From Phorcus lineatus (taxonomy: Eukaryota; Mollusca; Gastropoda; Trochida; Trochidae): a stretch of 64,000 nt of DNA. The stretch lies in NCBI GenBank assembly GCA_921293015.1, contig OV121092.1, positions 4,470,001 through 4,534,000 of the forward strand, in the 5' to 3' direction. The translations under genes were made by a program, and so were the position numbers. The notes beneath the pieces were generated by a model. It had not been told where the DNA came from. It saw only the letters and a program-made list of their open reading frames with translations, and searched no databases. Shown here one piece after another: positions 8,521 to 61,400 of the stretch. Position 1 is the first letter of the stretch. Every line of letters starts with the position of its first letter.

Positions 8521-8960
8521 TCACAAAAACATTAAAGTGGTGTAACAGAAATTTACGGACCGTTAGTTGTTGGAGTATTGATTTTGAACTTAGACAATAT
8601 TTGATCTATCCGGCAGCGGGAAACATCTCCAGCTAATCTTGTGAATGTGTAAGATGGTCATTTATTCCTACACAACCTCTGTTCTAAAACAAGCTTTTCT
8701 CGAGCTTCTGGCAGTTTTTCCCGGCGGCATAATATTGTGTCATAAACTACCTTTCAATATTTCAGTAAATGGAAACACCGGATGCATGGATAGCATATTT
8801 GTCGTCAAACAGGCGTAAGTAAAGATGCTGTTTCCTAAAAAGGCGAATGTGCTGCCTGGAGAAGATTAACTTTTAAGAAAGAAGATATGGAATTATCTGA
8901 GGCGTTTTGAACTATTACGTTTGAATTTTTGAACTAATTTTGATTGCATCTAATCAGATT

Positions 8961-9170
8961 TCTACATTTCTAGACCGTGAAACACATGAATTCAGACAGA
9001 GGTTGTACAGGTATTTATGACGGAGCTACCTATGTTGGAAGAGAATGGCTCACCACTAGAGTCCTTGAAATGTCGACTTATGGGAACTTATTGTCGAACC
9101 AAGGCACACCGTCTACTGCATCGTGCTGAATCAGTGATTGTAAAAAACGCAACACGAAATTGGATTAGAC
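8961..9170 (+). pseudogene. Short exon-like relic, GIYDG family copy 1
   Basis: The block TTCTACATTTCTAG to TTAGACGTATGT recurs on the minus strand at 14430-14525 and on the plus strand at 14811-14905. In one frame it reads GCTGIYDGATYVGREW and the second copy reads CCVGNYDEGTSVWREC, a cysteine spacing faintly like small secreted domains, but the similarity is too short for a family call. A 64-codon frame in another phase (9017-9211) is the alternative. The left edge follows a TTTCTAG acceptor-like word and the right edge precedes GTATGT, a possible donor. A TGA interrupts the favoured frame. Confidence 0.35.
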
Positions 9171-11085
9171 GTATGTCATTGAACATTCATTTATTCATTT
9201 ATATAACTTAGAGAAACTTTGAAAGCAGTATTTTTTAAACTGTAAACCAGTTGCTACCATACGCGATTTCATAGAGTTTATTGATATAGGTACTCATCTT
9301 CTGTGTTTGTCAACTATTCATCATATCATTTCTCCATCTCCTCACTAGAACAATAGTTTGAAATTTACAGTCCCTTTCCATTCTCATGAATATCAAATTT
9401 CGGATATGATCTTCTGTTTCGTAAGTCTCGAACAAGTAGATTTGGTTAGATGCAAACTTTCCGACTTAAAGGTCTAAGCACTTAATGTCAACACTTAAAT
9501 AAATTACTGCGGATCGTGTTACTATTAGTCAGCTTTCCTCCTTAAACTAAATGCCATTTTATTCACACATATCGTACAATTTTCTGTATAGGAAAAATTC
9601 TTTAAAAAATTTAAATATATTAAACAAACAGTTACATATTTCATAATCAAACCCAAACATAGTTGAACGTATTATAAATAAGTTATCACCATAATCAGAT
9701 CAGTTACGTTTATTCACCTAAATTGATAGCGTTCAATATCACTGAAAATCAACAGATACAAAATCGATAACATTTTGTGTTGGAATAGCAAATATGAAAC
9801 TGAATAGTGTTCATGCTGCAAAGTTATGACATACATTGTATACATACCGATCGTCTTGTTAATTAAGAAACCATTTTTAAAAAAATTAACTCTCAAATTT
9901 CTTACTGAGTACTACCCAACCGTAGCTGTACCGATAAGAAAAAACATACCATGTAGAAAATGAGGAGTTATGTGACATTGTTATTTTTGGTATAACATCG
10001 AGAGGTGGGTTCAAATCATGCACTCGCTCACTCATTACAAAGGTAAAGAATGATAATAAGAGAAAAATAGTTCGGTGAAAATAAACATTGAATGACAACC
10101 CTTGTTAATCGAAATTAATTAAACGATTATTAAGTACATTATATATTATATATTAATATTATTACGTGTACAAAAGAATACATACCTTTAAAGCATTTAT
10201 CATACACTTACAATGACAAGTTTGTTAAATATTATTGGGTTTAAGGTTGAGTGGCCTAAATTTTCCATTCGTAATAGTTTGGTATTCTGAAATCAGAAAG
10301 TTTTGTGGAAACTCCTTTTATGACTGGAGTACTTATAATGAAAGGTGAGGCTCTTAAATTATGCAAGTTCTGTCAAGGAGAAACTGTTCGACACGATGTT
10401 AAAGGAAGTACATAAGAATCAGGTAATTTTTCTGACTCATTAATTTGTTAGAGATACAACAATAAAATCCCTCATGAACTCATGATGTTAACACTTTTTG
10501 TCCACTTTGCACCCGAACTGTGTGTATGGTTTACAGGCATCTGATTGATAGAGGAGCATCAACGAAAGCAAACAAGGATCAGACCAACTAATGATACAAA
10601 AGCAACAAGACGACTTTCGCTACCAAGTCACAAGAAGACATAACGCGAATTTACTCATATTCTTATGGGCCATAAAATAAGGCAGATAAAATTATTTAAA
10701 ATCTTCCTTTTTAACTTCATAAAGACAGGGAGCTTTCATCTTAGCGCATGATAAACACGAAACCACCATGAAGAAATCACAAGAAAGGAAACTGAAGGGT
10801 AACCTAACTGTACTGAGTGTCTGCCTTTGTGTTTCTATTTCTAACTTTCTATTGCTTTTAAACATAGGCGTTCTTTGATATATCTCGAGTACAAACACGT
10901 TGTTGTGTGAAGCGTCTATAACCAAGGGTGAGTCATTTAAAATAGATACCAAACTGAGTGACAAGTAAGTCAACTACGGCCATCATTCTGTAAGGGGCTG
11001 TGGGATGTCAAATAAGTTTATCTAGCACTATATCACCACTTGCTTGTATATCAATTGTTATTGCAACTTTTTATATATTTATATA

Positions 11086-11400
11086 GGGGGTGGGGAAGCG
11101 TAGTAGTTAGTGGGTTCAGCTTCGTATAATAAGGCCTCAGGATCGAATCCCGCCAGGGGCTTGGCAACTGTGTTTGCAGTAGAAATTTGTTCTACATGAT
11201 GTGAGGTTTGGGTGCAATGCTACACTGAATTCAGGACAGTATTTCCCATGGTTTGCTAGTTCCCTACGCTCGCAAGTCTCACCGCAATGCAAAAGCCACA
11301 ATGGTGGTGTGGACTACCTACCTTCAAGAATAATAGCATCCGTGATGTAGTGAAATACTTTTGAGAGCGGCTTTAAACCCCAAATCACCTTCAACCCCAT
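11086..11400 (+). mobile_element. tRNA-headed SINE, family 1, diverged copy
   Basis: The head resembles a tRNA gene, with a damaged A box (GCGTAGTAGTTAGTGGG) and a B box (GGATCGAATCCCGCC). The body (GTTTGGGTGCAATGCTACACTGAA, CAATGCAAAAGCCACAATGG) matches the well-kept copy at 56988-57322 along its length, and the tail ends in TTTAAACCCCAAATCACC. No clean target duplication was found. RNA polymerase III transcription is the known mode of the class; this copy looks old. Confidence 0.85.
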
Positions 11401-11654
11401 CTACATTAGTATAATTGATTTGAAAATTACTATTTTATAATTTTTTTAACACTGTTGTTAAGCATGTGCACATGGTATAAAAAATTCGAGTTAAATATTA
11501 TCGTCAGAGCCAATACTTGTTTCAGACCATGCTTTAAGCTTCATGTCATATAATATATACCTTTTCTTGAATGATGCCAATAAGCGCAACGAAGTACGTT
11601 TGAAAAAGAAGCCGTTTGAGAGAGAACAGGTCATAAGCACAAAGTTGCGCAGAT

Positions 11655-11925
11655 ACATAGACAAACAAGTAGATCAAACCAGGGATCTTAATACCGTGAT
11701 AATCAAATCTGTCCAAATGAGGATTATTCAGCCAGTAATCTCCCAACAGGAAGCCCTGGCCTGATAAATTTCCAATCATGACTGGCGTGACTGGCAAGCT
11801 TTGAAACATGACATAAGTCCTTTTTTTGCACAGACATTTCCTTCCTGTTCTAAAATCATAACAGTCCTTAAGAGCACTCTCAAACTGCACAAGTGTCATA
11901 TTGTATATATCTTTGACATTCACCT
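11655..11925 (-). pseudogene. Exon relic, PDM family copy A (part of a 125-codon frame)
   Basis: This lies in the minus-strand open frame 11546-11923. The frame contains VQFESALKDC, then MFQSLPVTP, LSGQGFLLGDYW and NNPHLDR..KIPGLI. The MFQSLPVTPDMF..LSGPGFLWRD part is matched by the 23.7- and 51.9-kb copies, with changes that are mostly synonymous in this phase (AGA/CGA, TTA/CTA, CCT/CCA), which argues that it was once translated. The frame continues past the homology into sequence without support, so the true exon end is unclear. It is the least damaged copy, but no start, promoter or partner exon is evident. A faint likeness of QFES followed by an LSGP block to galactose-3-O-sulfotransferases was considered and is not adopted. 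Confidence 0.5.
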
Positions 11926-12850
11926 TTGCAATTAGTTATCTTAAAGTTTTTATCATAAGTTTATTTCATAGGCTTTTATTTCTAATAAAATGTATTAAAA
12001 AACATTACTGAAAACATCTTGCACACAACTTTCATAAAGGATTTTAATGTTTCGACGTACATGAATTGAATATAAATGGGCAAATCCGAGATTGCTATTC
12101 AAAGGATAGCTGAGGAATTCCTGTTATAGTTGTATAATAGTTATTGTTAAATAGTTGATGTTTAAAAGCAGGGACGATGTTAAATGGTTAATGGCGATGT
12201 CATCCAGGTTTATTTAGTCAGTGATTTTATCTTCACAAGGGGTGAAATAATAAAAGATTAACAAAGGAAAAGGGTAAATTTAAAGAACTATTGGTTATTA
12301 AAAAAATCTATTTAAAAAATGTGTGCATTATATGGAATAAAATCACACTTATGTATTAATTCTAAAAATGTTGAATTCATTAACTCCTTATGTGATCATA
12401 CTTCTCGCTTCTGGAGACAGATTGAATACAGAAAATCTTAAATGTAACTCTCAAAGTCCTTTTCTAACAGGTGGGACTAGAAGTAAATAGCTAGAAGTGA
12501 ATTTTCTAACTTAACTGTCAATCAGCAGAGTATTTTAAGGTAACATTTCACCTATTGTTCTTGAAATATCAAATGCACTTGAAGTTCCATATAATTATTT
12601 AAATATGATTAAGGAAAGTTCTGAGGTCAAGAAATAAAACACGTATATGACAAAATCTACCTACGTGCAAGTATTTGAATTTTTATCATTAAAGAAAATC
12701 TAAATAGTTTGATTCGTCATTTCTCTCACATATTATCTCTTCCAAAGAGCAAAGCATCCGTTGAAGTGATGAGGTAACAAGGACACATGACCAACATATC
12801 TACTGGATGAGTGAGGTATTCTCTGCCATTTTGACATTAACAGCTTGCAT

Positions 12851-13177
12851 TAAATATATTGCAAAATTTCATTTAAACAGATGGATTAAATTAGAAAACT
12901 TCATACAAGACAAAAATAAGTGTCGAGAGATTATAGCAAATTGATACAAAAAAAGGTAGTGACCAATGGTCAGGTATTCCCTAGAACTAAAATCAAATAT
13001 TTGTCATTGGATGGAGGAGTGCTCTGTTTTCTGATTGGCTGAGACAGAGAATCAACAACATACTCAACAAACATTATGTTAACCGCGATAAAAGGTATGC
13101 GACGTTTACATAACAATCATATCATATAGAGCTAACTATGTGAGGAATGCTGTTCGGAGTTGCTTCCCTTGGCAGTT
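12851..13177. other. Non-coding, nothing recognised
   Basis: AT-rich sequence with no matched repeat. Confidence 0.4.
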
Positions 13178-13394
13178 ATGACAGACGATGCCAAAAAACA
13201 CTTTTCTGATGCCGACAACCAATAAGTTAAACTATTGATTAAGAAATATAATAAAACAGTAATTAACTTGAGTTAATGGGTTTATTGTCAGTAATGAGAG
13301 ACACTGCAATGAATCACTTTACTAATGCCGATAACAAATACAATAAAATATTGATTAAGAAATATAATAAAACAGTTATCGACTTTAGTTATGT
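13178..13394 (+). repeat. Tandem duplication, unit about 116 bp
   Basis: Positions 13178-13278 and 13294-13394 align along their length, sharing ATTGATTAAGAAATATAAT and AAAACAGT. They differ at roughly one base in six, so it is an old local duplication. A 66-codon frame over the second unit is probably chance. Confidence 0.8.
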
Positions 13395-14429
13395 GTGGAT
13401 CAAAATGTTTGTCAACTTCGGAACACTTATGTGGCGGAAGCCAATAATTGTAATATGTTACAGTAATATATTTTAACTTACTTTGAATGATGCTTCAATT
13501 AGGCCACTTTTTGGACCAGAAAACAGGATTCAAGATACAGTACAGCCCCTTAATTAGAGTTTGTTTCACTACATTGGAACTTAGTGCAAATAAAAATAAC
13601 ATTAATGTTCATTCACGATCCAGTTATTAAATCATTATTCCTCCAAAAGTTAGTTTTTTCTTCTAAAGATAAAGAAATTAAATATTGCCGTCACGGGAGT
13701 ACCTGTGACAGGTTGTACTGCAACATATGGGTCCAAAATACACTATTAGACTATTAGTATTCTCTTAACATAGAACATTGTCAATTCGAAATTTGTTTTG
13801 GTGAAATTTGAAAGATATTTTATTGTTTAAAAAAAGTGTCAACTTTGACGAAAAATTTGCAGTAAATTGATTTGAATAAAATTTTATCACATACTAAGGA
13901 GAATCATAGTTTTCTAATTCCGACCCCATGCCAATTTTGGGGAATACTAAAACGGTTTCTGGTACACAACTTACATGTACCAGTCCCTTGTATATGTAGG
14001 GTAAAAATTTGATAGAATGGTTGAAACATTTAAGTATATGTTTAAAAAATCATGACAAATTCAATATTTCCAAAAATGATGATTTTATTTAAGACAGAAT
14101 TTAAGTATCTGTAAATAGGGTTAAAGACTTTGAGACCTATCACATCCATATTGCTGTCATTTTTCACTCGTCTTGGCAAAAATCACAGGTCGTAGCAAAT
14201 CAATAAACCACTATTAAAGAAACAGATCAACCCTTCTTTTCAGTTAAATGAATGTGTTCCTAGAACAAAATAACCTGATTTGATAAATCCATCTATGCAA
14301 TGTATAAAATCGAGGTGACCATCTACCCAATCTTGTTTTAAAGAGTTATCACCTTACTAACGTGTCTGAAGGTGAATGGCTTGAGAGACGGCTAGGAATT
14401 AAAGTTATTTCTAAAGTTAACCAGATCTA
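13395..14429. other. Non-coding; the end is a diverged repeat of 15300-15390
   Basis: The stretch is unremarkable except that 14270-14335 (GATTTGATAAAT...GTGACCATCTACCC) matches 15315-15380 (GATTTAATAGAT...GTGACCATCTTCGT), evidence of a further local duplication. Confidence 0.45.
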
Positions 14430-14525
14430 TCCTTCAGCATTCTCTCCAAACAGAGGTACCTTCGTCATAATTTCCTACACAACATCTGTCTTAATACGAA
14501 GGTTTCTCGGCCACGAAATGTAGAA
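14430..14525 (-). pseudogene. Short exon-like relic, GIYDG family copy 2
   Basis: On the minus strand the sequence runs from CTACATTTCGTGG through CTTCGTATTAAGAC to GGTACCTCTGTTTGGAGAGAATG and aligns with 8961-9070 and with 14811-14905. In the shared phase it reads CCVGNYDEGTSVWREC and then stops. With 14811-14905 it forms an inverted pair about 290 bp apart. Confidence 0.4.
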
Positions 14526-14810
14526 CGTTGACTGGATGCAATAAAAGTTAGTTGTGCAATCAGCGACGCCGTTTCAAAAGTTATCATTCAAACCGCCTAT
14601 GTTATTTCCGGAAGCCTTACAAAAGCTAAACTCGAATATGCAACTTGCACTTTGAGTCGTCTTTACAGGACACGTACGCCTCATTTTGCGACTGCATCAT
14701 CGCATAGGCATATGCGACAACAAACAGGTTAATCATGCATTGTGTGTTTCATTGGCTGAAATATTGCCAGGTACTTTGAGGTGCAATATTGTGACGGTAT
14801 GGTAAACTGC

Positions 14811-14905
14811 CGGAAGCACGAGAAATCTTCGTATTAAGACTGAGGTTGTATAGGAATTTATGACGGAGCTACATCTGTGGGAAGAAAATGATCCTTCAGT
14901 TACTA
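14811..14905 (+). pseudogene. Short exon-like relic, GIYDG family copy 3
   Basis: The words CTTCGTATTAAGAC and GAATTTATGACGGAGCTACAT match the 9-kb copy on the same strand and the 14.5-kb copy on the other. The shared phase gives GIYDGATSVGRK followed by TGA. It is too short and broken to be a gene. Confidence 0.4.
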
Positions 14906-15462
14906 CCGACTGATTTCTTCTGGCAGACATGAGGGACATTTTTATTTTTAACCATAAAAAACATTGAATGTCTATGACACTGGTTGGTATGGATTTCAGC
15001 AAGGTATGTAAACACAATGAACATCCCACTTACTCACTCTCAGTGCATTTATTTTAAAAATGACTTCTTCATCATTTGTAAATGCTTCGAGATAAAAGTT
15101 CAATTTATTAGATAGTGAACTGCAGCAAAGAAAAGGCCGAGGAGTGCCCGAAAAAGAGCAAATGATGACATAGGAGTTAGCACTTGGACTACCACTGAGG
15201 GGAGAGAATACCGGATCTCTGAGCCAAAAGAGCCTGAAGAATTCACTTCCAATAGAATGAGGTCAATCCTGCACATCAATGTCATACAGTCGTATTGAAC
15301 CTATCTATAGTTAAAAAACAACTTGATTTAATAGATCGACCTTATTTAGACAGACGAAGTGACCATCTTCGTAATCTTGACATATTGCCTAAAGCAAATG
15401 GGTGCTTATTGGGATGATATTTCATAATCCTTTCTAAGGAGGCGGGGCAGTAATACACTTAC
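14906..15462. other. Non-coding, nothing further recognised
   Basis: Apart from the diverged repeat at 15315-15380 described with the 14.3-kb sequence, no structure was found. Confidence 0.4.
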
Positions 15463-15690
15463 AAGCACGTCTGGACATGTCTGGCTTGTGATAAAGCCAG
15501 GGAATCGTGTTCCTTTTAACGCTTATCTGGTCAACTAATCAATTACCAGTGCGCAATCTTAATCTGTCAAACATGACAGATCTTCTCTCCGCTTTAATCG
15601 TATTAAGCTCGTGGATTGCTCTATCTGCCTCCATATGTCTACATTTTCTATGTTTTTGTTACATTAACCTCATAATTGATATAGTTTTTC
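15463..15690 (-). pseudogene. Exon relic with conserved splice donor, family E copy 1
   Basis: On the minus strand the frame reads EADRAIHELNTIKAERRSVM and FDRLRLRTGN, then a stop, then WLYHKPDMSRRA, and ends directly at GTAAGTG, a good splice donor. The same block, including CATGTCCAGACGTG and the GTAAGT, recurs at 46862-47040 and 63296-63470. The KPDM word recalls the PDM exon family, so the two may be related exons. The conserved exon-donor edge in three copies is the evidence for a spliced minus-strand gene. This copy keeps the longest frame but has a stop. Product unknown. Confidence 0.5.
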
Positions 15691-15944
15691 ATTGAAAGAT
15701 GTGCTCTATGTTTTCATACCGATAATGAGCTTATTATGCATATTGTATTCAAATATATGTATTTTGCATATGTCCTTTTCAGTGGTGCAACTTGATATAT
15801 ACTGAAAGTTGGATAGATAACATAAAACGCTTGACATCTTTATTCGGTTTAAAAGATAGATTTTTAAAAATATGGTTTTTAGTTTGTTTGTAAGAAAGAA
15901 CTTTGACAATGTTAGACAGAATATAAAATAATAATAATAATACT
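15691..15944. other. Non-coding, nothing recognised
   Basis: AT-rich, with a chance-looking 67-codon minus-strand frame. Confidence 0.4.
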
Positions 15945-16970
15945 AACTAGGACTGCCGAGGCAGTACTTAGGTCTTCAAGACTTCCTCTTTGACCTTCAC
16001 CTAGTGTTTGACCTTCACACAGTGTTTGACCTTCACATGTTTTTTTTTGTCTTAGTGGTAAACAGTAACTTGCTTACGTGACGAAATCTCATAAGGAAAC
16101 TAATATTATTGCAAAGAAGTTGATAATGCGAAAAAAGTATGCTAGTTACGAATTCGTCATGATTGACTTTTTTGTTTGCACTGTAATGACGCTTCATTCA
16201 AAACAAGTTTCAAGTCTATAGGTGCATTTTGAAAAATTACCCCATGTTAAATTTTGTCAAAAGATTTTTCCCGATTTCAATCGTTAATTGTGAAAAACTT
16301 AACCTTGTTCGCGATCAATGTTTTGATAGTTTCATAAAGTCCACATATAGGTCTTACATTCCTGAAAAAATGGTGCAATTGTGAGTCTAACTTTTTGAGT
16401 AATCGGCCCTTGAATATGGTCACAGGAGCTAAGTCGCCCGACTTTGAAGGGTTGCAGAAAAAAAATTATTAAGAAAAATGCAAATGTTGCTCTATCACTT
16501 TTCTCCCCAATCCTTCAGCTATGATATATGTGAGTTTCAGCTCTTAATTGCATGTATCTTCAGAGAAGAAGATTGTCAAAGATGCATGGGGTCCGGAAAT
16601 TGAAAAAAGTAGAAAAAAAAAAAATATGGCGGCGAAAGTACTAACGCTACGAAATTGCCGTGATTTACTTTTTTGCTCAAAATGTAATTGCCTATCGTTT
16701 AAAACAAGTTGCAAGTCTTTAAGTCCATTTTGAAAAAATTTCCAATGTTAATGTTTGAAACTTTGAGTGGGTCTGTGCCTTTAACGCATAATCCGATTGT
16801 GCCCAAAAGCTTCGCACGACTATTCCTCAGTAAGGGCTATGAGCATACAAAATTTGGTCGAATTTGAAGCAGCCGTTTTGGCTGTATCAGATTCACACAA
16901 AAAGTACAAATAATAATAATAACTCGGATAAAAACAATAGGTCTTCCAGACTTTGTCTTGAAGACCTAAT
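15945..16970. mobile_element. About 1-kb repeat-like unit with inverted ends and an internal duplication
   Basis: TAGGTCTTCAAGAC at 15969 is the exact inverse of GTCTTGAAGACCTA near 16953. Within it, 16125-16270 and 16605-16755 are diverged direct copies (shared words: GACTTTTTTG/TTACTTTTTTG, AAAACAAGTTTCAAGTCT/AAAACAAGTTGCAAGTCT, CATTTTGAAAAA). No transposase is present, so a non-autonomous element is likely. Confidence 0.45.
15989..16038 (+). repeat. 18-bp tandem repeat, about 2.8 units
   Basis: The unit TTTGACCTTCACCTAGTG is repeated with small changes. Confidence 0.9.
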
Positions 16971-17799
16971 AATAACGATTGGAATATTGTTGACTGAAAG
17001 AGACAATAACATTTACACACAGACATAGTTTGACAGGGACGCAAACATGTGAATGGTGAAATAATCAAACAAAATGGCATCCGCAACACAATCCTCCAGT
17101 ACCAGGGTTTCACGTTCAAATCTCTATTCATATCCTAAATCCTTTCACGACCTGCTGTTTATCTGGACTCCTCGTGTTTATGTCTTCTTGGTAGTATGCC
17201 CATGGCCTTACAAACGAGTTTTAATAAACGAATTAAAGCTCTTCGGGTGAAAATGCAAAGTAATCTCTTTTTTCTCAGATGTTGAAACGCCATGGCAATT
17301 AATGGAACTGCTTTGTCTTTATTGTGTTCTAAGTTGCGTAAGACACTACCACATCAAATACCACTTCACAAAAAGGTGTAATTGTAAATAACAAATGCAA
17401 AAGAAATGCTACATTTCAATTGCTATTGAGTGTGATAGTATTAGTCTTTAATTCATTTTCATGGATATTTCATTGATTGTCTTATCTTGTATGTCATATT
17501 TGTGTTGTCAGAACATGTCCTGTCTGTACCAAAACTAATTACGATTAACTATTCAACAATCTATTATGTTTCAATTCCATGGGCCTTTTATTCTATTTCA
17601 AACCATAGTCAACAAACTCATTCATAACTACCTACAAACATCAAAAATAGATTACTGAAAGCAAGGATATCAGCACTTGGACACCAAGTTGTAGAAGCAG
17701 TTTACAACCTTAAATTCTAATATTCTAATTTACTTAGACAGTGAGGAAAAGTTCATGATGTCCAATGTTATTTCAAATAAGTGTGTTTTAAAAAACTAA
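16971..17799. other. Non-coding, nothing recognised
   Basis: A 103-codon minus-strand frame (16820-17131) overlaps the left edge, but it runs across the repeat end and shows no motif. Confidence 0.4.
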
Positions 17800-18260
17800 C
17801 ATGTGTTAAAGGTTTTAAGATAACATTCTAGTGTTATGAAATTGAGTGTGCCCTTTCTCCTAAATTATTTCATCCCAGCCACATATAAATACAACAGAAT
17901 GTATTATTATTATTTGATTAATATCTTTCTTTTTGGCAAGGGCAAATAGTAATATCTACGCCATGACGACCGAATACACCAGGGTTTCACCACAGAAGAA
18001 TTCATACTGATATTACTGTTGATTAATCTCATCTAGATGTTATCACTCTTCTCAAATCTTGTTTCGGTTTATTCAAAAGGTATGCAGATTGTATAACGAA
18101 AGTAACGATTATTTACTCACTAAACATCATTTCTGATGAATGATGCTTCATCATATTTGTGAAGTGTAACATTTCTTACAGAACAGATTATTAAAACTCT
18201 ACACTCAGATTTTACTCTTTGCATTTCTGTGTTTATTATGTTCTCTTGGAGAAAAACCTT
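17800..18260 (+). repeat. Paralogous block, copy 1 (matches 25680-26100)
   Basis: Shared order: GATAACATTCTA, then GGCAAGGGCAAATA, then GTTGATTAATCTCATCTAGAT, then TTCTCTTGGAGAAAA, against GATAATATTCTA, AGCAAGGACAAATA, GTTGATTAATCACGTCTAGAT and TTCTCTTTCTGAAGAG. No coding signal is evident. Confidence 0.55.
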
Positions 18261-18889
18261 TTCCTCTTTTTAATAAATTTGAAGTCCTTCTAAGTATATG
18301 ATCCATAGCTAACAAGTTTAAATTCACACAAAAGAAGTCTAAAGTTTAATTACATTACTATTTTACAGAAATAGGAACAGCCGGCACATAAATCCAGTGA
18401 TTAACAAATTCAGGACCAAAAATATAAATAGAATCGGTCTAAATAGAAATTGGGGAGCCAATATGTCCTTAACTCCTCAATGAAAAACGAGTTAAATGGT
18501 CGTCATAACACGTCTGGTTAAAACAAAGAACATCGGCTAGCTTACTTTATCCACAGCCTATTTTACTATATCAACCCTTAATTAAGCAATTGATCTTAAA
18601 CTTCATGGTCGGTTTTTTTTCAAAATGGCTTGTTGGAAAAAAAACCACTTAACTAGTTATTGATATCAATCCCTTGGATAAGTGTAGGTTAATGATATAC
18701 TAAACATTTGATTTGTACAGTCTTAAACATATCCTAAACTCTAATGAGCATATATGATGGTAATATGTGGTGTTTTGGGTTTAACGACGTTTTAAAGAGT
18801 GCTTCTCTTAGTATTATTGCAGAGAGAAAGCCCGTGCACTTCTGTGGCAGAAGTATTGCATTCTGTCGTGTAAATCTAAAGAATAAGTG
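18261..18889. other. Non-coding, nothing recognised
   Basis: Two overlapping opposite-strand frames of about 70 codons (18734-18956) begin here and look like chance. Confidence 0.4.
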
Positions 18890-19060
18890 TACGTTTACGA
18901 AGGTAATGAAAATCATAAATTTTTTGTTGAGCACCATCTGTTACCTTAATGATTGAAACACGATGCACGTCAATGCTTTTGTTTGTTATACTTTTGATAC
19001 GTGCTAGCTTACGCACATAGATTAATTGATTTCAACATGGGTCAGTACTTTATTGTAACA
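18890..19060 (+). repeat. Paralogous block, copy 1 of 3 (others 27960-28120, 33160-33300)
   Basis: CTGTTACCTTAA, GATACGTGCTAGC and ATTGATTTCAACAT occur in the same order at 28.0 kb, and a more diverged version is at 33.2 kb. Confidence 0.6.
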
Positions 19061-19771
19061 TGACTTCGTTGTATCCTTGATTCTGATTGGTCGATTCGAA
19101 AAAATTACCCTATGTTGAATGACAATGAATACCCGCAAATTAGCAAAGGCGAATCACCGCGAATGTTCACTAGTGCCGGCCCGACTCAAGTTTTAATTTT
19201 CCAGTTTCTTAGAAAAATCGTGCCGTACTCCGATTTGACAGTTGTCTTTGTCCTTTTTTATATTGTGCCTACCGGTAGATATAACAAATACACTTTAATA
19301 TGATTTATTTTTGAAGAACGAAAATATTTTAAACTGGCTTAATAAGTCCAAGTTTGCCGCAAAGTTTCATGCGGCCGCCTTCTTTAGAATGCCGTTCCCA
19401 TGGTATGACGTCACAAAGGCCAAGCGTTTTGACGTCACAATGTCTGCGTCGCTGTCACAATGGTTGTGGGCTAGTTCAAGACTTTTGTACTCGGGGGTTT
19501 TACGATATTTTTCTATGAGCTTTATAATTGTTGATTTCGGTCTCGAATTAAACAAGTATGTTGTAAGGTCTCGCTGTTACGAATGTCACTATTTGCTAAT
19601 ATCACAACGATGTTCGTAATGTAAATAATGCCGGGAATTCACATTAGTTAGACCTTATCTCACCTCTTACAGAAATAGAACAGTCACAAAGTCCTTTTCA
19701 CACAAAAACAAGTACGCAAAAACAGAGTTCGCTTTTAAAGTTCTAATAACTAACGGTAATGTTACAATATC
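19061..19771. other. Unassigned, GC-richer patch; relic of the hairpin element
   Basis: At 19113-19145, GTTGAATGACAATGAATACC and CGCAAATT resemble one arm of the hairpin at 19772-19932. A 102-codon plus frame (19311-19619) and an opposing 62-codon frame show no motif. Confidence 0.35.
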
Positions 19772-19932
19772 GATAAATAGTTGCGTTAGTAAAATTTCCG
19801 GGATTCATTGTTATTCAACGCCCGCAAATTTAAGCGTTTAAAACCTCCGGCTAACGCCATCGGTTTTAAACTAAATTTGCGGGTGTTGAATAACAATGAA
19901 TCCCGGAAATTTTACAAACGCACCTATTTATC
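19772..19932. mobile_element. 160-bp hairpin (palindromic MITE-like) element
   Basis: The arms 19772-19845 and 19862-19932 are nearly perfect inverse complements, about 72 bp each, around a 16-base loop (TCCGGCTAACGCCATC). It separates two paralogous blocks that are adjacent at 28.0-28.3 kb, so it is an insertion relative to that copy. Confidence 0.8.
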
Positions 19933-19934
19933 TT

Positions 19935-20100
19935 CTTATTGAATTTAATTATAATTCGCGACTTGTCAGGAAATCACATTGACATATATTTATGTAACAA
20001 CTGTTCCTGTGAAAACATGTAATAATGTAATGTGCCTTCGTTACCTTTCACAGGTATGTTTTAGTGACTTGTATTATTTTGATATTTTAACAACATTCAA
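19935..20100 (+). repeat. Paralogous block, copy 1 of 2 (other 28135-28290)
   Basis: CTTGTCAGGAAATCACATTGA and AATGTGCCTTC recur in order at 28.17 and 28.23 kb. Confidence 0.6.
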
Positions 20101-26100: not shown

Positions 26101-26110
26101 GTGTTGAACA

Positions 26111-26123
26111 GTCCTCAACATCA
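26111..26123 (+). repeat. Target-site duplication, left
   Basis: GTCCTCAACATCA is identical to 26565-26577 on the other side of the palindromic element. Confidence 0.85.
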
Positions 26124-49125: not shown

Positions 49126-49149
49126 TCATAGCTCTCTGGTCACTAACAC

Positions 49150-52120: not shown

Positions 52121-52559
52121 TTTGAAAATCTTTTTGATTTTTCGAAGTAACATACATTAACAATTCAAAGAATTTTGTAAAAAAGATGGCTGAAAAAACC
52201 CTTTTGCAATTGTTTGATGATTGATGTGTGAAAACAAAGACATAAACGATGTAATCAATGTTTATAGTTAGTAAGGATTTTATTTTCATGAGAATTGAAT
52301 TATTGAAGGATTAAACTTAAAAAGCACAGTCTAATCGGGGTATTTCTGTTGGAAAGAGAGACCTTCCTATTGATCATATACACTAATACTAAATGATTAT
52401 AACACAACACAGTTGAAATATGTTATTTAGGGTAACAGTTTAGTTGATTTAGGTTTGATAATTTTATAAATAAGAGCGCATACTTGTTGAAAAAACAAAA
52501 CATTGAGAACTGAAGCCATTAACTGAAACACATTTCCTAGAATTATATAACCGAAACAA
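52121..52559. other. Non-coding, nothing recognised
   Basis: No matched repeat or coding signal. Confidence 0.4.
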
Positions 52560-53230
52560 GACTTCATTTTCATAATACCTTTTATTATAAGATAAATGTC
52601 TTCCTTGTCTACAAAGAGTAATCCAATTTAAATGTTCTCTTACCGAAAAATAAGCTTACTCAAATTCACAAAGTTGTTTCTTCTGTTAGAATTGATTTTT
52701 TTTCATTAAGTCGTCATTATTTGCTACTTTTCTGTGTGCAGTTACTGATTGACTTCACTCTATGTATGAATCCAGGCCTTAAATTATTGTCTATGTATTT
52801 TAGATTATTTCAATGGTGGTCGCATATCATTCATTATTCACATCAGATTGATCATCATAAGTAACATTTCTTTGGCTATTAGAAGATCAATATAGATGGT
52901 ATTTGAAATGAAGCATGGCGATTCCAAATTCTATTTTTATGAGAAAAAAAACCCCACATAGCCCAAACTTGGCAGATCATCATATCCAAGATTTCTTTAT
53001 TTTTGGACGGAAATAAACTTGTGTCTTTCAGAAATCTTTATTCGATGTCATAAATAAAAAAACACAGATCTGACACTTCGGAAGTGTTTTTTTCCTTGTA
53101 ATTCTTGTAAAGTTTGCTTGATTTTAAGGTTCAGTAGTATTTTTGTTATGTAGTACCAAAAAAAATAATTTCATATTTTCGAAAAATGGTTGAAAAAATA
53201 ACATCATTTATTTCAAGGACATTGTTTATA
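52560..53230 (+). repeat. Paralogous block, copy 2 (matches 33961-34640)
   Basis: It contains TGTGTGCAGTTACTGATTG, TATTAGAAGATCAATATAGA and GAAATCTTTATTCGATGTCAT, in the same order as at 34 kb. Confidence 0.65.
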
Positions 53231-53554
53231 AAATTGTTTTCAAAAGTTTTTGATTTATATAGATTGTTAATAAGAACATCATACCTCATGCTATCGCTGT
53301 TGAGCTATAGAGCCATATATTTGTATTAATACATTGATTTATCAATGCATCTTTACAAACACATATAATGTAGATTTAATGACGGTTTGGATTGAACAGT
53401 TGACTTAATACAAAATGGAATATCTTCATATTAAACCGTGATTTTAACTATATTTCGGTTGCATAAATGTACGCTTTTCACAGATATTTGCCACTTATAC
53501 ACACATACACATTTATTACAGCTGAGCAACTCTAATGCAACGGTTACATGTACA
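53231..53554. other. Non-coding, nothing further recognised
   Basis: 53500-53545 is a diverged match of 36020-36060. Confidence 0.4.
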
Positions 53555-53743
53555 TTACCAACAGATCGAATGAATAAGCAATGATTGGACAGTAGCATAT
53601 TTTATCTCCGTCCAATTTTGTGTGCCGAGCACGGAAATAATGAGCTCCTAATCACCATTATCAGAATGCGTGAATGTGTTGGAAGAATACTCCGGGCTGA
53701 GCTGATGAGATTTTGTATTATGCCCAAGGGTTGAACCATACAG
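53555..53743 (+). repeat. Paralogous block, copy 2, left part (matches 36490-36700)
   Basis: It shares AAGCAATGATTGGACAGTAG and TCCGGGCTGAGCTGATGAGA with the 36.5-kb copy. It ends in CATACAG, which is repeated at 55598-55604 across the inserted block. Confidence 0.8.
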
Positions 53744-53812
53744 GTCATTTTGTTTTATTAGGTATAAATGGCCATGAGGGCAACAGTACAACATGTGAAA
53801 AAATATAAGACA
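53744..53812. other. 69 bp of unexplained inserted sequence left of the Tc1 element
   Basis: It is absent from the empty-site paralogue at 36.7 kb and is not part of the Tc1 inverted repeat. It may be what remains of an earlier insertion. Confidence 0.55.
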
Positions 53813-53983
53813 TAAATTGAACACCAAAAATTTTTTACACCTCTTTGAATTTGAATATCATAAAAAGTGACGTGTTCAAAGGAATTTGCTTTACGTGTTG
53901 TAACACTCCTTCAGTTTAGTGTTTTGTGCTAAAATAGCAGACCTGTAACTTTAATGGTAAATAAGTTATCGCCAGTTCTTCAT

Positions 53984-54023
53984 GGGGGGGGGGGGGGGGG
54001 TGGGGGGGGGGGGGGGGGGCGGG
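53984..54023 (+). repeat. Poly(G) tract in the left inverted end of Tc1 copy 1
   Basis: Seventeen G, a T, eighteen G, a C and three G occupy the place where copy 2 has GGGTGGGG and the right end has the complement of GGGTGGGG. Confidence 0.97.
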
Positions 54024-54345
54024 CAATTGTCCTGTTTCCGATAATGCTGAAAATTGTACAAATTAACCAAACTTTCTTTTCATTGATAAGGAATGCACAT
54101 TCATAAAAAAAGGTAATTAGTTATGGTTTTGGAAATATTTATTCGTTATATTGTCTGAAAATGACGAAATATTGAGATTTGTTTCTAAATCTTTCTAAAT
54201 AGTGAACTTCGGTTTTCATCAGGAGGATCATGTCTCCAAAACGTAACCATAAATGTTTTACCACGCATGAAATGCACGTGAAATCAGTTGGTAACAGGTA
54301 TAGAAGGCCCCTGTATTCATTATTTTACACCATAATTCGATTACA

Positions 54346-55342
54346 ATGCCTAGATTAACAATTGAAGAGCGGGAAAGAGCGATTGGAATGCTGCAGACTG
54401 GGTCCACTGATGGGGAAAGTCGCTGCCGCATTCGGAAGTCATCGTCTCACCATTCTTAGGCTGCGTGGACGTCTACAACAGACTGGATCGACTCGAGACT
54501 GAGCTAGAAGCGGCAGGCCGCCAGTGACAACCCCAAATGAAGACCGGTACATGCTTCCAACTGCATCTCAGGAACTGCTTTCAAGCCGCCACAACAACAG
54601 CTTCTACTGCACTTGGACACCGAATCAGTCCCCAGACGGTGAGAAGAAGGCACCAACAACATGGACTGAGGTCATACCGGCCAACACGAGCAATGCTGTT
54701 GACGCGCCGACATCGACAAAACAGGGTTGCTTGGGCCAGAAATGTTCGAAGTTGGCAGAACCAAAACTGGCAGAGAGTGTTATTTTCCGACGAAAGTCGG
54801 TTCCATATGCGCGTAGAGGACGGGAGAAGGGGGGGGTCTACGGTCGCCGGGGTGAGAGGGAGGCACGCTGCTGCATACAGGAAGTTATCCCTTTCGGTGG
54901 ATGCAGCGTCATCGTCTGGGGTGGGATACACGGCAACGCAACCACCGACCTCATTGTCATTGACAGAAAGCTGACAGCGCAGAGGTACATTGACAGGGTC
55001 CTACAGCCAGAGGTCATCCCATTCCTACAACGCCATCCAAACACCCTTTTTCAACAGGACAATACTCGTCCTCATTAGAGTGTCGTTACAGTACCTCAAC
55101 GTCAACGTTTTGTCTTGGCCTGCCAGATCGCCCGATATGAATCCCATCGAGCACCTTTCGGATTACATCGATCGAAGGATCCGTCAACGTCGACACCAAC
55201 CACACACACGTCAACAACTTATTGCTGCATTGATGGCCGAATGGAGGCGGATACCACCTGCTTTCATCTGACGGCTGACGTTTCTGTGAGACGAAGAGCT
55301 CAGGCATGTTTGAATGCCAGCGGCGGACATACCAGATACTGA
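54346..55342 (+). pseudogene. Tc1-like transposase, broken, copy 1
   Basis: Tc1 transposase cuts and pastes the element through a DD34E triad after an N-terminal paired helix-turn-helix domain. Present here are PRLTIEERERAIGMLQTGS at the start, the helical segment RLRGRLQQTGSTRD, RISPQTVRR, the first Asp in FSDESRF (GAC 54789-54791), the second Asp in FQQDN (GAC 55058-55060), and the Glu in SPDMNPIEHL (GAG 55149-55151). Damage includes a phase change at 54409 shared with copy 2, an added C near 54552, a slip in the G run near 54830, a small deletion at 55076, and stops after STRD, after RPH and at 55271. All three catalytic residues survive, in different phases. Confidence 0.92.
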
Positions 55343-55597
55343 TAACATACAATTTCTCATTATACTAATGATTATTCTATTATGTTGTTTTTGTGCATGA
55401 TCGGAAATAGGACAATTGACCCCACCCTTGAAGAACTGGCGATAACTTATTTACCATCAAAGTTACAGGTTATTTTAGCACAAAACACTAAACTGATGGA
55501 GGGTTACAACACAACAAAGCAAATTCCTCTGAACACGTAACTTTTTATAATATTCAAATTCAAAGTGGTGTAACATTTCTTTTGGCGTTCAGTTTAT

Positions 55598-55740
55598 CAT
55601 ACAGTTGCTTGGGATAACTTTATAAGGGGTTTCTTTTAATCGAGCTAAAACATCGCTATGAAAACATAATGACTTGTTGATATTCACTCTCAGCATATCA
55701 TGACTCGTAGTAAACCTTGACATTAATATTCTTTTTTTAG
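55598..55740 (+). repeat. Paralogous block, copy 2, right part (matches 36700-36840)
   Basis: GTTGCTTGGGATAACTTTAT and AAGGGGTTTCTTTTAAT continue the copy interrupted at 53743. Confidence 0.85.
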
Positions 55741-56059
55741 AAGTTTATTTTCAGTTTTTTATATCAAAACGTTTTTTTTCATTTCTCGTCAGAATGATGG
55801 TTACAGTTCTCAAAGTCATGCTTTACGTCATTTGTTCATACCATGGTTTAAGAGTTTAAGAGTATTAAGAAAAAAATCTCAATTTATGAATCTTTAATCT
55901 TTATACTCATAAAACCTCCATTTTGACATTATGCTTTTTTATACACTTAAGTAAAGAGCATCAGTATTATTGCTGAAGAAAAACGACTTAATATAGATGG
56001 TGATGCTTACAACGACTTTTACCTTATTTCTTTTTACGTTTTACAAGGGAGGAATACCA
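55741..56059. other. Non-coding, nothing recognised
   Basis: Poly(T)-rich sequence with no coding signal. Confidence 0.4.
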
Positions 56060-56640
56060 AAGGTGTACTCAGTGTCTGTTTATTCTCTGCCAAGCAATTG
56101 AAAACTTTAAATACTCATGACTTTCTTTGTAACATGTTATTGTCAAAAACGTAAGTGCAACAACGATCATCGCCAGACAACATTTCGTAAGATGTCAAGC
56201 TACCCGACACTCCTGACATTAACACCACAAATGCACAACGCAATTTATCGTTTTTGTTTGATTTCTAGGAAAAAAGGAGCTTTCAAATATTGTAGCGAAA
56301 CGGAACAAAATACATCTACTTTCAAGACGAACAGTACAATATAAAATTTACAATGATGTACTTATTACAAAAGATGTTTATCTTCCAGTAGCCATTTCAA
56401 GTTGTTTGATGATTCGTAACGGTTGTATGAACAGATAAGTTCTCACGAAGGAATGAACGTCACTTTCGTTCGTGTAAGTTGTTAAAAGATTTAGATAGTA
56501 CAATCAAGATCGATTCATGTTTCAAAAGTGGGCAACTAAGTGACACTGACATATCAAGAATATCAATGGACAGTGGTTCTTGGGTAATCTGGCTATAGGA
56601 GATTAAGATAGTATCAACCCAAACCCGTTGAATGTTCAAT
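56060..56640 (+). repeat. Old single-copy relative of the 1.68-kb unit end and its flank
   Basis: GCCAAGCAATTGAAAACTT, AACATGTTATTGTC, AAGATGTCAAGCTACC, AAAAAAGGAGCTTTCA and GTTTGATGATTCG follow the order of 39090-39420. The AATCAAGATCGATTCATG block at 56503 follows the order seen after the array at 42866. A 75-codon frame at 56117 is incidental. Confidence 0.7.
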
Positions 56641-56975
56641 CGATGAAGAGAGATATACATTGATTTGATTCTAAATGTGGTAAAACTATATTAGTTGTCA
56701 GCTGTTGACCTTATTCAATATCTTTAGACTTTTTAAAAAAATTATTTACACGACTTTAATTGATATTGGAAATTAAAAAAATTCTGTGATTATTGTAAAC
56801 AGTTATGATGTATCTGTCTCTCCTTGAAATGTCAAGCTATAATTGTCATTGCCTTTTACTTAATCTCCATATAAAAAGTTCTCTCAGGAATAAAGCTCAA
56901 ACATAATAGAACGATTTTTAAAACAACAGCATTTGAGATGTAACACTGTAACATTCTACATTCTAACATTCAGAG
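56641..56975. other. Non-coding, nothing recognised
   Basis: Diverged continuation of the paralogous flank, with no coding signal. Confidence 0.4.
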
Positions 56976-56987
56976 ACGAAATAAAAT
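56976..56987 (+). repeat. Target-site duplication, left
   Basis: ACGAAATAAAAT is identical to 57323-57334. Confidence 0.9.
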
Positions 56988-57322
56988 GGGGGCGGGATAG
57001 CGCAGTGGTTAGCGCGTTCGGCTTCGGATCAGGAGGTCCGTGGTTCGAATCCCGCCAGGGGCTCGGCAACTTTGTCTGCATTAGAGAACTGTTCTACACA
57101 CAGTCAGGTTTGGGTGCAATGCTACACTGAAATTCACTGCAGTACCACCCATGGTTCGCTAGTTCCAGCCGATGCTCGCAGGTTTCACCGCAATGCATAG
57201 CCACAATGGTGGGTGTTGCGGGCTTTCTCCCTGCAATAATACTAGCAGCCGCGATATAAGTGAAATAATCCTGAAAGCGGCGTTAAACAACAACTCACCT
57301 CACCACCTCACCACCTCACCTC
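56988..57322 (+). mobile_element. tRNA-headed SINE, family 1, full-length reference copy
   Basis: The head GGGGGCGGGATAGCGCAGTG continues into GTTAGCGCGTTCGG and the B box GTGGTTCGAATCCCGCC, a good internal pol III promoter. A unique body of about 190 bp follows, then the tail GCGTTAAACAACAACTCACC with CACCT-type repeats in place of poly(A). A 12-bp direct repeat flanks the element. The good tRNA-like boxes and clean duplication make this the youngest family 1 copy here. The open frame over the head (56933-57130) is not a gene. Confidence 0.95.
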
Positions 57323-57334
57323 ACGAAATAAAAT
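57323..57334 (+). repeat. Target-site duplication, right
   Basis: Exact repeat of 56976-56987. Confidence 0.9.
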
Positions 57335-57535
57335 ACATTGTTTGGGACTGTTTACATACATCATGATATTGCCAGATGATTATCATTCTGTTATTCTTTC
57401 ACATTTATTTTCATCTATGTTGGTTCTGACATGAGTTCTCTGTAGAATTAAAAACAATTGGGCTGCTTATCAAACTTCATGAAATATATTAATTTTATTG
57501 ACTGTTATGTACTTTAAATTTAACTGAAACAAGTA
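57335..57535. other. Non-coding, nothing recognised
   Basis: Short AT-rich spacer between two SINE copies. Confidence 0.4.
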
Positions 57536-57779: not shown

Positions 57780-58206
57780 TAAATCAATTGAATAACATTC
57801 ATCAACATGTAAGGAAAATTAATGGTTATATTTTAAAATGCAACTGCAAAATAAATTATGTTTTCGAGAGGAGTAAATAAAAAACCAGTCAAAATTGGCC
57901 TCAAGGCACTAAATCTCATAACATAATGCATCTTAATAATTTTGACAAAATGTTCGTTTACGTTATCAACGTCACCTTTCAACCGAGCCATTGGTAGTTT
58001 TCCGATGTGTTGTGTCTCTATTTTGATAAATACTTTTAAATTTTGCCATTTACATTGCCTTGTCCATACTGCTTTCCACTGAAATTTTGAAATACTCAGA
58101 CTTAACAAAGCAATCATGATAGAGGCGGAACCACTGCATGACTGCAAGGAGGTTCTACACAAAACATTTTCACATCCTTGCTGCAACCAGTTCTTTATGC
58201 CACATC
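57780..58206 (-). other. Unassigned; 117-codon minus-strand open frame
   Basis: The frame 57833-58186 is the longest outside transposons besides that at 11.5 kb. It begins QGCENVLCRTSLQSC and has a hydrophobic patch (MIALLSLSI), but no motif I recognise, no paralogue in the window and ordinary local composition. It might be a fragment of an exon or of an unrecognised element. Confidence 0.2.
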
Positions 58207-59133
58207 AACTGAACGCCAAAAGAAATGTTACACCTCTTTTAATTTGAGTATTATAAAAGTTACGAGGAATTTGCTTTGTTGTGTTGTAACACTCAATCAG
58301 TTTAGTGTTTTATGCTAAAATAGCAGACCTGTAACTTTAATGGTAAACAAGTTATCGCCAGTTCTTCATGGGTGGGGTCAATTGTCCTATTTCAGATCAT
58401 GCAATAATCAAGTGAAAATTGTAAAAATTTACCAAACTGACGTTGTTTTCTTTGATAATGAATGCACATACAAAAAAGGAAATAATTTTTGTTTTTGAAA
58501 ATACTTCTTCATTATTTTGTTTATTTTGTCTGAAAATGACGAAATATTGAGATTTGTTATTTTTATATTCTAAACACAACCATACGATTCTAAGAAAACG
58601 TTTTTGTTTTAAAACGTGCTTCGACTGCTTTAGGAAGCTTTGGCACATGTTTACGGACTAGATTTCTTTCTAAATCTTTCTAAATAGTGAACTTCTTAAA
58701 CATTTCGGTTTTCATCAGGAGGATCATGTCACCAAAACGTAGCCATAGAATTTTTACCACGCATGAAATGCACGTGAAATCAGTTGGAAACGGGTATTAA
58801 AACGCCCCTGTATTCATTATTTCACACCATAATTCGATTACAATGTTGCGATTAACAACTGAAGAGCGGGAAAGAGCGATTGGAATGCTGCAGACTGGGT
58901 CCACTGATGGGGAAAGTCGCTGCCGCATTCGGAAGTCATCGTCTCACCATTCGTAGGCTACGTGGACGTCTACAACAGACTGGATCGACTCGAGACCAAG
59001 CTAGAAGCGACAGGCCGCCAGTGACAACCCCAAATGAAGACCGGTACCTGCTTCAACTGCCTCTCAAGAACCGCTTTCAAGCCGCCACAAGGACAGCTTC
59101 TATTGCACTTGAACACCGAATCAGTCCCCAGAC

Positions 59134-59143
59134 GGTGAGAAGA
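59134..59143 (+). repeat. Target-site duplication inside Tc1 copy 2, left
   Basis: GGTGAGAAGA is repeated at 59461-59470. Copy 1 of the transposon has one uninterrupted version. Confidence 0.92.
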
Positions 59144-59460
59144 CCACCACTGGACCCAATACCTTATCGCGGTGTGGTGGTTTGGGTGCTTCAGAGACCC
59201 CGAGAGCTATGCCAGCCGGAGCGTACATGTTCCTGCGGAAAGAAAGGCATAGTGAGAGATAGAATGCAGGTTTTAGAAAGACTCAAATTTGGTCTGGCTT
59301 CTACCCATCGACCTGTCCAGCTTGGGTGTCCCTACCAGTTCCCTCTTCCTACCATCCCTTTTCCCCTGATCTGTCCACTCTCTTTTGGATGCTTGTCATC
59401 CACGTGTTTAATAACTGAAATATTGTTCAAAGCACGTTAAACCCCAACTCACTCACTCAC
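59144..59460 (+). mobile_element. SINE family 2, nested in the Tc1 transposase
   Basis: The 317-bp unit begins CCACCACTGGACCCAATACC, continues through GGGTGCTTCAGAGACCCC, GCCAGCCGGAG and CTGTCCAGCTTGGGTG, and ends GTTAAACCCCAACTCACTCA with an ACTC tail. It is about the same length as the minus-strand copy at 61473-61791. No clear tRNA-like head is seen, so its pol III origin is inferred from the class. Confidence 0.93.
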
Positions 59461-59470
59461 GGTGAGAAGA
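59461..59470 (+). repeat. Target-site duplication inside Tc1 copy 2, right
   Basis: Exact repeat of 59134-59143. Confidence 0.92.
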
Positions 59471-60433
59471 AGGCCCCAACAAAAATGAATGAGGTCATAT
59501 CGGCCGATGCGAGCAATGCTGTTGACGCGCCGACATCTACAAAATAGGGTTGCTTTGGCCAGAAATGTTCAACGTTGGCAGAGCCAAAACTGGCAGAGAG
59601 TGTTATTTTCCGACGAAAGTCAGTTTCAGATGCACCTAGCAGACGGGAGAAGGAGGGTCTACCGTCGCCGGGGTGAGAGGGAGACACGCTGTTGCGTACA
59701 GGAAGTTATCCCTTTCGTTGGAGACAGCGTCATTGACTGGGGTGATATACGCGGAAACGCAACCGCCGACCTCATTGTCATTGACGGCAAGCTGACGGTG
59801 CAGAGGTACATTGACAGGTCCTACAGCCAGTGGTCATCCCATTCTTAAAACGCCTCCCAAACACCCTTTTTCAACAGGACAATGCTCGTCCTCATGTAGC
59901 GAGAGTGACGTTACAGTACCTCAACGTCAACAGCGTCCGTTTTGCCTTGGCCTGCCAGATCGCCCGATATGGATCCCATGCAGCACCTCTAGGATTACAT
60001 CGATCGAAGGATCTGTCAACGTCGACACCAACCACACACACGTCACCAACTTATTGCTGCATTTATGGCCCAATGGAGGCAGAAACCACCTGCTTTCATC
60101 AGACGACTGACGTTTTCTGTGAGACGAAGAGTTCAGGAATGTTTGAATGCCAGCGGCGGACATACCAGATACTGGCCACATAAAATTTGTCATGAAACTA
60201 ATGATTACTCTATGATTTATTTGTGTTTGTGCATGATCGGAAATAGGACAATTGATCCCACCCACGAAGAACTGGCGATGATTTATTTACAATTAAAGTT
60301 ACAGCTCTGCTTTTTAACACAAAATACTAATGGTGGAGTGTTACAACACAACAAAGCAAATTCCTCTGAATACATAACTTTTTATTATATTCAAATTCAA
60401 AGAGGTGTAACATTTCCTTTGGCGTTCAGTTTA

Positions 60434-60839
60434 TGCCAACCTGACGTCTTACTATGACGAACTTGCAATGGAAAGCAACATGATCATTATACTTACTTTT
60501 GTGATCAAATTGTTTCCGAAAAAACGCCTTTTGCAAGTGCAGGGACGTAACCATCGCATGAAGGTCAGATTACATCGGTTTAGGCGATTCAAAGAGTTTT
60601 CGCATGAATTGGTGTTTTTTTTCAGGAGACTGTCAAACTCCTTGTGTTTCGAAATGCCATGTTCTCTGTACACAGATCTTGCAGTCAGGACATTCTGAAC
60701 CAGTTTTAACCAGCATTCAACTTAGAAATTGTTTGTTATCTTTTCTATGCAAAGAACCTGTCAACATTTTAAGCATAAGTCATAGATAGCCTGAGTAATT
60801 GCCTGATTTCCTGTTATTCAATCCCGACAGGAGAAAGTT
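60434..60839. other. Unassigned; short frames only
   Basis: Frames at 60468-60698 (plus) and 60452-60673 (minus) overlap on opposite strands and show no motif. Confidence 0.3.
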
Positions 60840-61400
60840 GAGTCAGGTATTCGATTCAGTTATGTGGAAATGTAACAAATCACCTAAGCCATCCCTATAC
60901 ACTTCATTTTTGCTGAATTTCGGGAAGATTTTTATCTTGTAGCACAAAACTCGTTCTGCTTTTATGAAGCACTGTACAGCTGTAAATGTACAATAATGTA
61001 CATAGTGAGCATTATCGAATAACCATTTCAAATTGTTTGATGATTCCTTTAAAAGATAATAGACCTTTGATCTGGCAACCACAAACGAAGGAATAGGGGT
61101 TACTTTCCTCTGTGTAACATTTTAGTACGATTTGCAATCAAGAGTGATTCTTGTTACAAAAGTGAAGAACTGATTGACACAGAGGTTATACATCATAATC
61201 AACAGACGGCGGTCTTTAAGTTGTCTGTCCTTTGGAGAATAAACCATGATCAAACCAACACCGTGGCATGCTCCGTCAACGAGACAGACAGATTTATATT
61301 TATTTGGAATGCTGTAAGACTAAATTAAATAGCCAGCTGATGATTAAGCTGTTGGCGTTTCTCATTTATTTTCATTTAACTTTGTGAAACTTTCTCATCC
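60840..61400 (+). repeat. Old single-copy relative of the 1.68-kb unit end and its flank, second copy
   Basis: GTTTGATGATTCCTTT, GACCTTTGATCTGGCAAC, GCAATCAAGAGTGATTC, AATAAACCATGATCAA and AGCCAGCTGATGA appear in the order of 42750-43070. Confidence 0.68.

Follow-up and report, generated by a model that had tools for sequence, protein, structure and literature searches.

Why does one stretch of molluscan DNA hold the same short blocks, in the same order, several times over? The question is raised by a window of 64,000 nucleotides (the whole stretch analyzed here) from the gastropod Phorcus lineatus (NCBI GenBank assembly GCA_921293015.1, contig OV121092.1, positions 4,470,001 to 4,534,000 of the forward strand). 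A first-pass annotation had noticed a landmark sequence recurring within it and proposed that a gene-bearing unit had been tandemly duplicated several times and had then decayed and been invaded by transposons. The present analysis arrives at a similar view: the window is probably what remains of a segment that was duplicated locally and stepwise, and has since decayed and been invaded by transposons. Local duplication followed by decay is supported by units that are collinear, non-interleaved and mostly in one orientation, by Kimura two-parameter (K2P) distances in the landmark region of 0.42-0.59 within and 0.85-0.98 between two types of unit, and by inserts resembling Tc1 transposons and short interspersed nuclear elements (SINEs).

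Landmarks and collinear units

The landmark carries two words, each of which recurs with at most two mismatches at five of the six places ascribed to it, always on the + strand. AAGAGTGATTCATG is found at 22708, 42867, 51192, 56506 and 61140 and is absent at 10925; ACTGAGTGACAA is found at 10953, 22737, 42896, 56535 and 61169 and is absent at 51190 (unit C), where the landmark alignment shows a deletion. Further matches to ACTGAGTGACAA occur at 10087 and 31409 on the + strand and at 2998 and 34082 on the - strand, the one at 2998 falling within an inverted copy, G, described below. Local alignment of the six flanks, a check that the annotation had itself proposed, showed that similarity extends both left and right of the words, though the alignment is gappy and has a mean column identity of 48%. 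The observation of a recurring landmark is confirmed.

The order of the blocks was assessed by self-comparison with blastn, with masking applied to transposons and microsatellites and to two copies of a triplicated piece in unit D. It returned 83 matches at an expectation value (E) of at most 1, 62 at 0.1 and 49 at 1e-3, while a reversed-sequence control comprising twice as many comparisons returned 35, 9 and 0, respectively. Direct matches between units make up 35 of the 49, and all 35 are collinear, in each of the eight unit pairs having any (nine each in A-C and A-B, seven in D-E, four in B-C, three in D-F, and one each in A-D, A-F and E-F; for counts and spans, A includes its sub-copy A′ and C its sub-copy C′). 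The remaining 14 represent repeats that are inverted or local; G is involved in four. Among 13 weaker matches (E 0.001-0.1), sorted by hand, seven lie on the diagonals, three lie off them (43586-61347, 57368-61329 and 18951-33207) and three are either local or inverted or fall beyond the units. The anchors are thus collinear and not isolated, in agreement with the claim that short blocks recur in one order.

Collinear similarity spans 3.8 kb in A-C, 10.4 kb of A and 7.2 kb of B in A-B, 5.2 and 3.6 kb in D-E, and only 2.2 and 2.0 kb in B-C at E≤1e-3. The annotation had described A, B and C as collinear over at least 3 kb, which applies to A-C and A-B and overstates B-C. The units tile the window in non-interleaved order, with six of the seven main copies head-to-tail on the + strand and G inverted (Table 1). 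Successive landmarks are 11783, 20159, 8325, 5314 and 4634 bases apart, or 11478, 16805, 8325, 3527 and 1803 once the listed inserts are subtracted. The reported rightward shrinkage from about 12-20 to about 5 kb begins with the second interval, the first step (11783 to 20159) running the other way. No special process is seen behind this trend, for which unequal extents of duplication and deletion suffice.

Short recurring blocks, some of them on both strands, are also typical of SINEs and of miniature inverted-repeat transposable elements (MITEs). The blocks could derive from dispersed repeat (transposon) families, one or a few in number, whose ancient members happen to lie close together, their collinearity being that of long or composite elements. 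This explanation, the main rival, is improbable, given the strand shared by six of the seven main copies, the multi-block segments of 2-10 kb (up to 10.4 kb in one pair) whose lengths and extents differ by pair, and the lack of any Pfam match above cut-off, hence of any visible transposon protein, within the unit sequence scanned. The ends of the blastn matches vary between unit pairs, no dedicated search for common ends or target-site duplications having been made.

Table 1. Units, sub-copies, inserted elements and weak inverted matches in the window
Feature	Position	Strand	Details
Unit G (type X), seventh copy, inverted	2043..3240	-	landmark region 3240-2827; post-landmark block 2321-2043
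Sub-copy A′, before A	8415..9700	+	MITE-like copy 8657-9047 inside; matches 48790-49950
Unit A (type X)	10100..20646	+	landmark 10925; SINE-like insert 11086-11390; post-landmark block 11663-12045; Z blocks 14348-14430, 15392-15617; collinear with B and C
MITE-like element	14437-14890		72-base inverted ends, 83%
Unit B (type X)	21691..28892	+	landmark 22708; post-landmark block 23560-23886; collinear with A (9 matches) and C (4)
Unit D (type Y)	34059..47031	+	landmark 42867; Z blocks 44411-44492, 46826-47031; collinear with E (7) and F (3)
1.68-kb piece of D, three times, head-to-tail	37821..42852	+	copies about 99% alike
Sub-copy C′, before C	48790..49950	+	matches A′; landmark profile 49156-49324, E 0.0019
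Unit C (type X)	50060..52314	+	landmark 51192, second landmark word deleted; post-landmark block 51735-52106
Unit E (type Y)	52674..57417	+	landmark 56506; split by Tc1-like insert 53811-55597; SINE-like insert 56985-57320
Tc1-like remnant in E	53811..55597	+	two main pieces match 58202-60435 at 91% and 88%
Second Tc1-like remnant	58202..60435	+	nested SINE-like insert 59144-59460
Unit F (type Y)	60885..63465	+	landmark 61140; SINE-like part 63037-63219; Z block 63225-63465
Weak inverted match	28891-28790		E 3.8e-4
Weak inverted match	12820-12396		E 0.0011
Weak inverted match	23782-23656		E 0.0028
Weak inverted match	22079-21920		E 0.0028
Weak inverted match	35285-35166		E 2.3e-4; 35285-35164 against post-landmark block, E 1.4e-5
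Weak inverted match to landmark profile	62522-62257		E 0.0011

Two types of unit, an inverted copy and sub-copies

The copies had been described as a single series. They form instead two types, accompanied by an inverted copy and sub-copies. A tree of the units contains one supported branch (100/100), and no other, which separates D, E and F (type Y) from A, B, C and G (type X). In the gappy landmark alignment, identity is 59-63% among A, B and C, 64-68% among D, E and F, and 46-49% across the groups; single blocks in the self-comparison reach 65-80% and 64-82% within the two groups, respectively. K2P over unit pairs as a whole ranges from 0.42 to 1.15. A landmark profile built from type Y matches A (E 1.8e-6), B (2.1e-5) and G (3.6e-4), and one built from type X matches F (4.5e-4) and E (0.0084). 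The best E values from 20 dinucleotide shuffles were 0.06-0.33 across the five profiles tried, with the A′, M and iterated profiles controlled by reversed sequence only. Judging by these profiles, the link between the types at the landmark is real, but short and uneven.

Unit G lies to the left of the range originally annotated (8521..61400). Profiles built without it locate its landmark region at 3200-2891 (E 1.9e-9) and its post-landmark block at 2321-2080 (E 7e-44, both by nhmmer), in the order and on the minus strand that an inverted unit predicts. The post-landmark block of G also matches A, B and C by blastn. The limits given in Table 1 were refined with profiles that included G.

Sub-copies A′ and C′ show good similarity to each other. 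The left part of these sub-copies matches G at 3183-3002 (E 2.4e-6), and their right part matches G at 2973-2877 (E 7.6e-7) and D (E 0.0012). The landmark profile is weak on A′ (8565-8659, E 0.007, then 0.2 after iteration), and a profile of a short block termed M, built from D and F, finds C′ at E 6.3e-5. A further block, Z, follows the landmark in the same order in A, D and F, and is joined on iteration to the post-landmark block of A, B, C and G. Growth was presumably stepwise, a pair (A′-A or C′-C) being copied jointly.

The nesting of A′ ahead of A and of C′ ahead of C, in mostly one orientation, recalls satellites and higher-order tandem repeats, another familiar class with which such a locus may be compared. 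Here, in contrast, the copies are few, they follow no regular period (spacing 4.6-20 kb), and homogenization is seen only in the triplication within D. No kb-scale tandem array was reported by Tandem Repeats Finder, whose period limit is 500.

Gene content and inserted elements

What was duplicated? The annotation had spoken of a gene-bearing unit, a description that the present results do not sustain. No coding signal was found in 50 aligned unit pairs on two strands; the best of these 100 frame tests (z 2.45) was equalled in 1 of 200 shuffles, an unremarkable result given their number. Six-frame Pfam scans, from which 39500-42849 (holding two triplication copies), 47352-48350, 53813-55596, 57423-60899 and 63503-64000 were left out, covered nearly all of the unit sequence and gave no match there at the family cut-off. 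Long translated queries lose score in such scans (a GIY-YIG domain outside the units falls from 30 to 23.4 bits), and short or novel exons could escape. The coding tests and the Pfam and PDB searches, which could miss exons of this kind, found no recognizable exon or pseudogene per unit. Below-cut-off matches to YycI in F (E 0.15) and to a NACHT C-terminal domain at about 9.8-10.0 kb (E 0.032, scoring 14.7 bits where the cut-off is 27) were taken as chance. When two frames from the units and one from the left flank were searched against the PDB, nothing below E 0.3 was returned. A search for tRNAs found none, Rfam gave no match at the gathering score and three below it (E 1.2-2.5), and RNAalifold predicted no pairs in the consensus of the landmark region, from a gappy seven-row alignment. 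Ranking frames by amino-acid composition, using general database amino-acid frequencies, placed the transposon frames first and was otherwise of no use.

The locus might nevertheless be a cluster shaped by birth and death of a fast-evolving gene; its copies here would all be dead or have exons too short or novel to be recognized, and its introns and flanks would constitute the duplicated noncoding blocks. This is the less likely view, albeit a possible one that is compatible with local duplication. Gene clusters elsewhere do contain local duplications (PMC5103432), and F carries an open frame of 85 amino acids across the landmark (61071-61325). As an exon, this frame was dropped: it contains stops across D-F, one of them within D, 13 of 200 shuffles equal its paired D-F score, and in F it has no PDB match up to E 1. 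A gene-cluster reading is possible only for an unrecognised gene.

A block of E is split by the first Tc1-like remnant while the same block is whole in D, and the insertion in E is therefore later than the D-E duplication; about 80 bases beside this insert are also missing from D. Of two frames within this remnant, 54975-55268 shows similarity to the Sleeping Beauty transposase (E 1.6e-7), and the PDB set contains nothing significant for 54528-54971. The SINE-like insert nested in the second remnant is flanked by a nine-base direct repeat, GGTGAGAAG, and has a CTCA-type tail, and a second copy of it lies inverted in F (61473-61791). Taken by themselves, the transposon types and the SINE tail would tentatively suggest a metazoan and perhaps a mollusc. 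A SINE-like repeat, to which we ascribe a tRNA-like head, has copies in A, E and F and an inverted one beside E. These look like later inserts and not parts of the unit, because their distances from the landmark differ. The MITE-like copy inside A′ is inverted and about 65% alike to the element at 14437-14890.

Outside the units, the sole Pfam match above cut-off is the GIY-YIG domain (about 30.2 kb, E 6.7e-7), carried by broken frames at 29315-30469 that we take to be probably a Penelope-like element. Frame 29315-29569 matches a cytolysin (E 0.0036), which was taken as chance because the frame resembles, on our assumption, a Penelope-type reverse transcriptase. Matches of frame 29673-30053 to UPF0180 (E 0.026) and RecX_HTH1 (E 0.12) fall below cut-off and were likewise set aside as chance, and frame 30206-30469 has only chance-level PDB matches (best E 0.26).

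Other structures in the window include a large imperfect palindrome at 4416-7898, whose outer arms (4416-4730 and 7579-7898) are 78% alike and whose inner arms (5354-5477 and 6330-6449) are 73% alike; an (AAT)n run at 5998-6068 lies near its middle. A hairpin element at 26122-26565 has 136-base arms of 96% identity, and a tandem dimer at 13169-13391 has a 107-base unit (80%). An inverted pair at 3710-3915 and 63791-64000 (84.5%), the right member of which is cut by the window end, is likely a dispersed repeat. An open frame of 114 amino acids at 1412-1753 has no Pfam match, and its best PDB match is at chance level (E 0.68).

Triplication and proposed history

Within D, a piece of about 1678 bases occurs three times. 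The middle copy is a hybrid, its left side being like copy 3 and its right side like copy 1. On the left, copy 2 agrees with copy 3 at nine differences (one of them a two-base gap); on the right, it agrees with copy 1 at five. One base is private to copy 2. Alignment-end columns are left out of these counts. Such a mosaic would fit unequal crossing-over between two older copies, and an assembly loop predicts the same pattern. An artefact of this kind, in which the assembly loops through a two-copy repeat, is rather unlikely; it would leave local duplication elsewhere in the window untouched. Copies about 99% alike with a mosaic in the middle are what a loop would produce, while the private base of copy 2 argues against it and the other unit pairs are too diverged (K2P 0.42-1.15) to be artefacts. 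A (TAC)n-type run lies at 37342-37514, about 300 bases before the edge of the triplication.

The sea urchin Sp185/333 locus is a cluster of tandem segmental duplications for which a shaping role of recombination at repeats has been proposed (PMC5103432). The present window resembles what is described there in its local duplicated segments and nearby short tandem repeats, here the (TAC)n-type run. It differs in that no gene was found in the units, most copies are strongly diverged, and the run stands away from the duplication edge and not at it. Duplicated clusters shaped by recombination are a known kind of system.

The following history may be proposed. An ancestral segment consisting of the landmark region, the M block and the Z/post-landmark block would have been copied stepwise beside itself, with one early split giving rise to types X and Y. 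Type X would have led to A, B and C (A and C with their sub-copies) and to the inverted G, and type Y to D, E and F. A later unequal exchange would have tripled the 1.68-kb piece within D. Between and after the duplications, the copies would have undergone deletion and point mutation and gained Tc1-like, SINE-like and MITE-like inserts. Of all this, the similarity, order and orientation of the copies, their division into two types and the presence of the inserts are observed directly. Unequal or ectopic recombination may have been the mechanism, and decay of the copies was presumably neutral. Whether this amounts to a long-lived duplication hotspot that has no detectable gene on which selection for the copies could act and spans divergences from K2P of about 0.85-0.98 to about 1%, or to a cluster of a gene too novel or too short-exoned to detect, either proposal is advanced with considerable doubt.

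Several points weigh against this history. The collinearity counts are not independent, units being shared among pairs, and the matches counted are also those that defined the borders of the units, so that a chance probability calculated for the collinearity is not to be read literally. The type X profile finds D at E 0.14 only (reversed control 0.17), and the type Y profile finds C at E 0.65 only, no better than the reversed control. A′ and C′ stand on weaker matches than the main units: the M profile finds A′ at E 1.9 before iteration (2.5e-8 after), and the best reversed-control match of the A′/C′ profile has E 0.066. On iteration, the Z block is accepted at nine places, as might be expected of a dispersed repeat, and the window is rich in SINE-, MITE- and hairpin-like repeats. 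Weak inverted matches between unit parts in the profile search (Table 1) misfit a simple tandem series; such matches could represent additional inverted copies of old age or ordinary dispersed repeats. In D, the same hybrid middle copy would also result if the assembly had looped through a two-copy repeat. Confinement of the copies to this locus, finally, is presumed from the window alone.

Without gene content or genome context, the general view of such loci is unchanged. If the copies are confined to one locus, the window would constitute a datable record of repeated local duplication, with old, middle-aged and recent steps within 64 kb, for which the transposon inserts would serve as time marks. 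The array also shows how much decay leaves such duplications still readable.

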